A stretch of 25,095 nt of DNA from a virus, in the IMG/VR virus record IMGVR_UViG_3300027881_000069, positions 1 through 25,095 of that record. One strand, given 5' to 3'. Shown here piece after piece: positions 2,091 through 2,757 of this stretch; position 1 is the first letter of the stretch; the number at the start of each line of letters is the position of its first letter. The notes beneath the pieces are model-generated. The model searched no databases. It was given only the letters and a program-made list of their open reading frames with translations, and was not told the origin of the DNA. Position numbers and translations under genes: made by a program.

Positions 2091-2166
2091 GGGCTGGTAG
2101 CTCTAACGGGAGAGCAGGACCCTTGCACGGTCAAGGTTCTCGGTTCGAATCCGAGTCGGTCCACCA
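2091..2166 (+). tRNA. tRNA-Ala (anticodon TGC)
   Basis: The acceptor stem GGGCTGG/TCGGTCC contains the G3-U70 pair that is the identity element for alanine. The D-arm is GCTC/GAGC, the anticodon loop CTTGCAC (2122-2128) carries TGC at 2124-2126, the variable loop has 5 nt, and the T-arm is CTCGG/CCGAG with loop TTCGAAT. A73 and an encoded CCA (2164-2166) follow. The outermost anticodon-stem pair (2117/2133) is G-A. U33 is normal. Confidence 0.92.
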
Positions 2167-2291: not shown

Positions 2292-2369
2292 GTGGCCGTA
2301 ACTTCAAGAGGATAGATGATCCGGCTGTGAACCGGATAGATGTCGGTTCGAGTCCGACCGGTCACCCCA
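2292..2369 (+). tRNA. tRNA-His (anticodon GTG)
   Basis: The acceptor stem GTGGCCG/CGGTCAC is fully paired with one G-U. The anticodon loop CTGTGAA carries GTG at 2327-2329 and the anticodon stem is TCCGG/CCGGA. The T-arm is GTCGG/CCGAC with loop TTCGAGT. C73, typical of histidine tRNA, and encoded CCA (2367-2369) follow. Two oddities: the base at -1 is T, not the expected G-1, and the D-stem (2301-2304 against 2314-2319) is poorly paired. U33 is normal. Confidence 0.85.
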
Positions 2370-2524: not shown

Positions 2525-2601
2525 GCCGTCTTAGCTCAGTTGGCCAGAGCAGTTGCCTTGTAAGCATCAGGTCCTCGGTTCGAATCCGAGAGATGGCTCC
2601 A
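2525..2601 (+). tRNA. tRNA-Thr (anticodon TGT)
   Basis: Acceptor GCCGTCT/AGATGGC, D-arm GCTC/GAGC, anticodon loop CTTGTAA with TGT at 2559-2561, and T-arm CTCGG/CCGAG with loop TTCGAAT. T73 and encoded CCA (2599-2601) follow. The anticodon stem GTTGC/GCATC has one T-T mismatch. U33 is normal. It ends only 3 nt before tRNA-Ile, so these are processed from one transcript. Confidence 0.93.
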
Positions 2602-2604
2602 TTT

Positions 2605-2680
2605 ACCAGGATAGCTCAGCTGGTAGAGCACTCGACCGATAATCGAGAGGTCCCTGGTTCGAGCCCAGGTCTTGGTACCA
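2605..2680 (+). tRNA. tRNA-Ile (anticodon GAT) with C33
   Basis: Acceptor ACCAGGA/TCTTGGT, D-arm GCTC/GAGC with loop AGCTGGTA, perfect anticodon stem CTCGA/TCGAG, variable loop AGGTC, and T-arm CCTGG/CCAGG with loop TTCGAGC. A73 and encoded CCA (2678-2680) follow. The anticodon loop reads CCGATAA, so GAT is at 2638-2640 but position 33 (2637) is C where U is nearly universal. All other positions look functional. Confidence 0.93.
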
Positions 2681-2681
2681 C

Positions 2682-2757
2682 GGGTCATTAGCTCTAATGG
2701 TAGAGCAACGGGCCGTTAACCCGTAGGTTCTTGGTTCGAATCCAAGATGGCCCTCCA
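2682..2757 (+). tRNA. tRNA-Asn (anticodon GTT) with C33
   Basis: Acceptor GGGTCAT/ATGGCCC, D-arm GCTC/GAGC, perfect anticodon stem ACGGG/CCCGT, variable loop AGGTT, T-arm CTTGG/CCAAG with loop TTCGAAT, and encoded CCA (2755-2757). The anticodon GTT is at 2715-2717. The loop reads CCGTTAA, so position 33 (2714) is C, as in the neighbouring tRNA-Ile. The discriminator base is T, whereas bacterial tRNA-Asn usually has G. It lies 1 nt after tRNA-Ile. Confidence 0.93.

Follow-up and report, generated by a model that had tools for sequence, protein, structure and literature searches.

Position 33 of the transfer RNA (tRNA) anticodon loop is taught to be a near-universal U. The nuclease PrrC cleaves 3' to this canonical U33 and RloC cuts there too (PMC2610378), and a role in blocking anticodon nucleases has been proposed for altered anticodon loops of phage tRNAs (van den Berg et al. 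2023, PMC10264068). We describe here two adjacent genes, for tRNA-Ile(GAU) and tRNA-Asn(GUU), that carry C at position 33 (C33) in a 25,095-base virus fragment from IMG/VR (IMGVR_UViG_3300027881_000069, a single metagenomic record; the whole fragment is hereafter called the window). Like the phage tRNAs that the earlier study proposed to be nuclease-resistant, they belong to a phage tRNA array and have an unusual anticodon loop; position 33 is not discussed in the main text of that study.

The reading we favor, with a probability of roughly 0.6, is that both genes encode charged, decoding tRNAs (Ile for AUC/AUU, Asn for AAC/AAU) in which C33 is tolerated in place of U33. C is the sole substitute that would leave a pyrimidine at the U-turn; it has originated repeatedly among the tRNA genes of phages, in which position 33 seems to be under weaker selection than in most genes of hosts. 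Transcription and charging of both tRNAs, and a C still present at position 33 of the mature RNA, are inferences. The support comes from intact cloverleafs, the recurrence of C33, the near-exclusion of purines, the upkeep of C33 in phage isolates, its dependence on GC content and on position 36, and the existence of chromosomal tRNA-Val genes with C33.

Two intact tRNA genes with C33

Five tRNA genes, called both by ARAGORN and by the Rfam model RF00005, lie at 2091-2757 of the window:

2091..2166, plus strand: tRNA-Ala(UGC), U33 (ARAGORN and Rfam); the array member closest in sequence to tRNA-Asn
2292..2369, plus strand: tRNA-His(GUG), U33 (ARAGORN and Rfam)
2525..2601, plus strand: tRNA-Thr(UGU), U33 (ARAGORN and Rfam)
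2605..2680, plus strand: tRNA-Ile(GAU), C33, CCA encoded, A73 (ARAGORN, Rfam and sequence)
2637..2637, plus strand: C at tRNA position 33 of tRNA-Ile (read from sequence)
2682..2757, plus strand: tRNA-Asn(GUU), C33, CCA encoded, unusual T73 (ARAGORN, Rfam and sequence)
2714..2714, plus strand: C at tRNA position 33 of tRNA-Asn (read from sequence)

An initial annotation, made from the sequence alone, had reported C33 in the Ile and Asn genes, perfect anticodon stems around it and U33 in the other three, and all of this stands. Both genes depart from the U33 of elongator tRNAs, with C at 2637 and 2714, and their anticodon arms, CTCGA-CCGATAA-TCGAG in tRNA-Ile and ACGGG-CCGTTAA-CCCGT in tRNA-Asn, pair at five of five stem positions; each has the T-loop TTCGA and an encoded CCA. 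The covariance-model scan which that annotation had recommended gave 65.1 bits for tRNA-Ile and 63.4 bits for tRNA-Asn, both above the RF00005 gathering score of 29, and within the array they rank first and third of five, so they are not degenerate. The Ile gene has the features of a canonical tRNA-Ile(GAU), namely the GAU anticodon, A37, A38 and A73. The Asn gene has T73 in place of the canonical G73, a departure that had been missed; of the viral Asn tRNAs in our sample that have U33 and CCA, 75 of 75 carry G73, and T73 is found in 5 of 40 C33 Asn tRNAs. Spacers of only 3 and 1 nucleotides separate tRNA-Thr, tRNA-Ile and tRNA-Asn.

It had also been suggested that the pair might serve as decoys. 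Genes for non-decoding decoys, or genes in decay, would be predicted to show broken stems or loops and to admit purines at position 33. The non-standard discriminator of tRNA-Asn speaks for this reading. Against it, the anticodon-stem pairs are all intact and the scores high, as is the rank of the pair within its array. In the viral sample introduced below, moreover, C33 tRNAs equal U33 tRNAs in the quality of stems, T-loop and CCA, while purines occur at position 33 about nine times less often than C does and the few A33 tRNAs look degraded. We regard decoy use or decay as improbable.

Common descent of the two neighbors, likewise proposed, is unsupported: in sequence, the tRNA-Asn of the window resembles the tRNA-Ala and tRNA-Thr of its array more closely than it does tRNA-Ile. 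Nor is the sharing of C33 by neighbors strong evidence of a link, since some 14% of viral Ile(GAU) tRNAs have C33 in any case, and since it is found in 2 of the 30 Ile(GAU) tRNAs on contigs, other than the window, that were drawn for a C33 Asn tRNA. To judge from their sequences, the two instances are best read as separate events or acquisitions. Among the other tRNAs of contigs picked for a C33 Asn tRNA, 68 of 801 have C33, versus 73 of 2,327 in the unselected sample; strong clustering of C33 by phage is not borne out once GC is controlled for, the residue being weak (15 contigs with at least two C33 tRNAs against 13.3 expected; p about 0.03 for the pair count).

Recurrence of C33 in phages and cells

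To estimate the rate of C33, viral tRNAs were collected in three draws with patterns that leave position 33 free, and the isotype on which a draw was based was excluded. Position 33 was C in 73 of 2,327 distinct tRNAs (3.1%), A in 7 and G in 1; more than 100 sequenced phage isolates carry it, and C33 tRNA-Ile alone is in more than 140 phage records. The description of C33 as very rare therefore fails for phages. These counts suggest that phage tRNA genes leave U33 about 3% of the time, nearly always for C, and that they have done so repeatedly; C33 in the window is an uncommon variant of a tRNA that probably works, rather than an isolated curiosity. The initial annotation had left room for C33 being common in phage Ile and Asn tRNAs, and this holds for the former only: over all three draws, C33 occurs in 18 of 129 distinct Ile(GAU) tRNAs (about 14%) and in 1 of 170 Asn tRNAs, and exact pattern matches gave 16 of 121 and 2 of 122, respectively, or about 1% for Asn. 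A scan for C33 Asn tRNAs nevertheless returned at least 119 viral stretches, most of them confirmed as tRNAs by ARAGORN, which also found many other isotypes with C33 beside them.

Over its anticodon and T-arm, the window tRNA-Ile is best matched among isolates by eight Klebsiella phages of Jiaodavirus type (phiA85, RCIP0032 and six further records), which carry an identical 33-nucleotide segment, CTCGACCGATAATCGAGAGGTCCCTGGTTCGAG, including C33; its T33 version is absent from the phage collection. These phages differ from the window in the acceptor stem and in being T4-like, the window being podovirus-like, and tRNA-Asn has U33 in the two that were opened. A relative of the window from another metagenome (G011, capsid 75% identical) carries Asp, Ile and Thr tRNAs, of which the tRNA-Ile has C33 and an anticodon arm identical to that of the window on a different body. 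Sequencing or assembly error at both bases might be entertained for one metagenomic record; given the same C33 Ile anticodon arm in this independent relative and in eight isolated phages, we consider it extremely improbable. Two of the Klebsiella phage loci, L749 and L750, have the C33 tRNA-Ile core in common and differ in the 5' acceptor strand, and the tRNA-Ile of RCIP0032 pairs poorly at its acceptor ends.

A second form, which we call IME260-type, is found in Demerecviridae and Karamvirus (IME260, falkor, Brizo, CC31, Slocum and KEY among them). It shares with the window the Ile isotype, the loop CCGATAA and C33, and differs in its anticodon stem, AACGA/TCGTT, and in that only the Ile tRNA has C33 in the array stretches opened. 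Its central segment, AAACGACCGATAATCGTTAGGTCACTGGTTCGAG, is present in 139 phage records, which include phages from two families with hosts in several genera, and the T33 counterpart in none; every example opened (those six, Kenya-K36, AM_K4 and SEL21) has C33. More distant C33 Ile tRNAs occur in Sugarland, XacN1 and Acj9, and anticodon stems have changed in paired fashion with C33 kept (AACGA/TCGTT in IME260, GGCGA/TCGCC in Sugarland). A tree was built for 169 Ile(GAU) tRNAs with position 33 left out; it rests on just 76 columns, so that exact counts are soft. On it, the 37 C33 rows require 28 parsimony changes against a shuffled mean of 34, at least six of them forced by starred branches. 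This rules out a single C33 clade and points to repeated change with mild clustering. The tRNA-Ile body nearest to that of the window on the tree, from Providencia phage PSTCR5, has U33. No C33 tRNA was found in T5 or T4, which were dropped as models, nor in the stretches fetched from holin relatives.

C33 spans about 30 anticodons, and its occurrence depends on base composition and on the anticodon itself. It was counted in 31 of 1,774 tRNAs from contigs below 50% GC and in 42 of 553 from those above; in logistic regression the odds ratio was 1.9 per 10% GC and 5.1 for C36, while a purine at 35 and C32 had smaller effects. These distributions bear on a further proposal of the initial annotation, C-to-U editing, taken here as conversion of C33 to U in the mature tRNA by a deaminase. 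The C33 genes are otherwise normal and the substitute is C rather than a purine, as editing requires. An enrichment with GC is not what editing predicts, however, and the spread over so many anticodons, in many phages as well as in some bacterial chromosomes, would need a widespread, undescribed editor; no deaminase family was recognized among the open reading frames searched, which are part of those on this 25-kb fragment. Editing is in our view a slim prospect.

C33 also occurs outside viruses. One pattern retrieved a chromosomal tRNA-Val(GAC) that has perfect stems and carries C33 within the loop TCGACAC from 9 of 246 sampled Actinomycetota genomes, and a looser pattern added a tenth (loci L772-L775 and L777-L785). 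These share with the window a C33 within an otherwise perfect elongator tRNA; unlike the window genes they are cellular, mostly high-GC, of Val isotype and U32. As far as their sequences tell, they resemble the usual tRNAs of a chromosome, an argument that normal decoding is possible with C33. Among phages, the Bxz1-like mycobacteriophage Pleione carries C33 in both Val(CAC) and Val(GAC).

Probable tolerance of C33 and possible evasion of enzymes at position 33

Because position 33 borders the PrrC cut, a site shared by RloC (PMC2610378), C33 could instead be a counter-defence, making the phage tRNAs poor substrates for host anticodon nucleases or other enzymes that read U33, so that they replace host tRNAs cut during infection. 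In a broader version, C33 would be a selected phage trait, shared across phage families, that hides tRNAs from enzymes reading or cutting beside U33 while decoding is kept; the enzymes evaded would be anticodon nucleases and, for tRNA-Asn, also the queuosine-inserting enzyme. The sharing of the IME260-type segment by phages from two families, with hosts in several genera, agrees with such a role. The isotypes with C33, however, follow GC and C36 and not the tRNAs reported to be cut by PrrC or RloC: Lys (5 of 133), Arg (2 of 198) and Gln (0 of 116) are unenriched, although Glu is raised (9 of 122). The role would be inapplicable to the chromosomal tRNA-Val, and position 33 goes unmentioned in the main text of the nuclease-resistance study. 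Given that the isotypes do not track the PrrC and RloC targets, we hold counter-defence to be a doubtful alternative, and the wider selected trait, like the list of enzymes evaded, to be a tentative suggestion of much the same standing; the editing and decoy readings are weaker still.

A related signal concerns enzymes of the wobble position. TadA is assumed to need U33 for the ACG anticodon. Bacterial TGT requires U33-G34-U35 (PMC4425180). At GUN and ACG anticodons C33 was found in 3 of 378 tRNAs, against 70 of 1,941 elsewhere (p 0.002), a signal that was weaker in the regression (odds ratio 0.28, p 0.04) and that fits the TGT requirement. Such avoidance of C33 at anticodons whose wobble enzyme needs, or is assumed to need, U33 is only suggestive, since the deficit is absent from contigs selected for a C33 Asn tRNA (10 of 109 versus 62 of 778).

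Several observations weigh against simple tolerance of C33. Of 398 Pseudomonadota genomes, made up of 397 drawn ones and the seed, none was found to have a C33 Asn or Ile tRNA; the sole pattern match was the seed genome, at a locus where ARAGORN finds no such tRNA, although the U33 pattern matches 51 of 60 genomes; this suggests that C33 is normally selected against there. Among 119 Actinomycetota genomes the C33 Asn/Ile pattern likewise matched the seed genome only, with no tRNA there by ARAGORN. (Raw pattern counts in bacterial genomes overstate the true number, 78 of 116 loci having no C33 Asn or Ile tRNA by ARAGORN.) In yeast, the U33C change in tRNA-Gln(CUG) gives a phenotype that its authors tied to poor CAG decoding or charging (PMC3664417), so that some cost of C33 is likely. 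The conservation of the IME260-type could mean that C33 is favored, beyond being tolerated. For the window itself, T73 makes it uncertain whether the Asn tRNA would be charged as Asn, and a scan of 1700-2900 around the array, of a kind that is weak, showed no sigma-70-like promoter or terminator.

Our search for papers found none on C33 in phage tRNAs, which, with subscription journals thinly covered, is weak evidence of novelty. Natural C33 tRNAs of culturable phages, such as CC31, for which E. coli is listed as host, offer material with which the need for U33 in decoding, nuclease recognition and wobble modification can be tested.

Missing trinucleotides and other genes of the window

The window has a second peculiarity, much stranger than C33 and probably more important, which merits separate study. 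Over positions 1-25095, GCG occurs 0 times against 184 expected and CGC 0 times against 180. Both are missing also from 31 capsid relatives (L468-L475, L477-L483, L485-L494, L501, L502, L505, L506, L510 and L545); together with the window these amount to 269,887 bases with none found and about 3,800 expected, counted on both strands. The absence holds in coding sequence as well as in the tRNA genes. Of 639 other loci in which enough sites are expected, not one is poor in GCG, and every other trinucleotide is present in all loci of at least 8 kb. A capsid tree shows the trait to track descent, with 5 changes versus 16.5 when shuffled; two GCG-containing members, L476 (41 of 172 expected) and L484 (68 of 95), are nested among GCG-free ones and may have regained these trinucleotides or never lost them, and may mark a host switch. 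The pattern suggests that a 3-bp DNA target is under strict counter-selection, exerted, we infer, by a host defence or by a phage nuclease. CTAG (6 versus 802 expected), GGATCC (0 versus 172), GCCGGC (6 versus 121) and GGGCCC (2 versus 48) are also all but absent in the same set, counted on both strands, a bias that resembles restriction-site avoidance and is additional to the loss of GCG.

This loss leaves C33 unexplained, since U33 would not make these motifs. Avoidance of motifs was considered as a cause of C33 and rejected: with U33 the two genes would gain no GCG, CGC or CTAG, and neither the C33 nor the U33 k-mers show strong depletion.

Elsewhere in the window, the terminase shares about 33-34% identity with its counterparts in, for example, Pelagibacter phage Hodr and Vibrio phage VA-RY-3, and further proteins include a portal/adaptor, a major head protein, a holin and a spanin-like protein.
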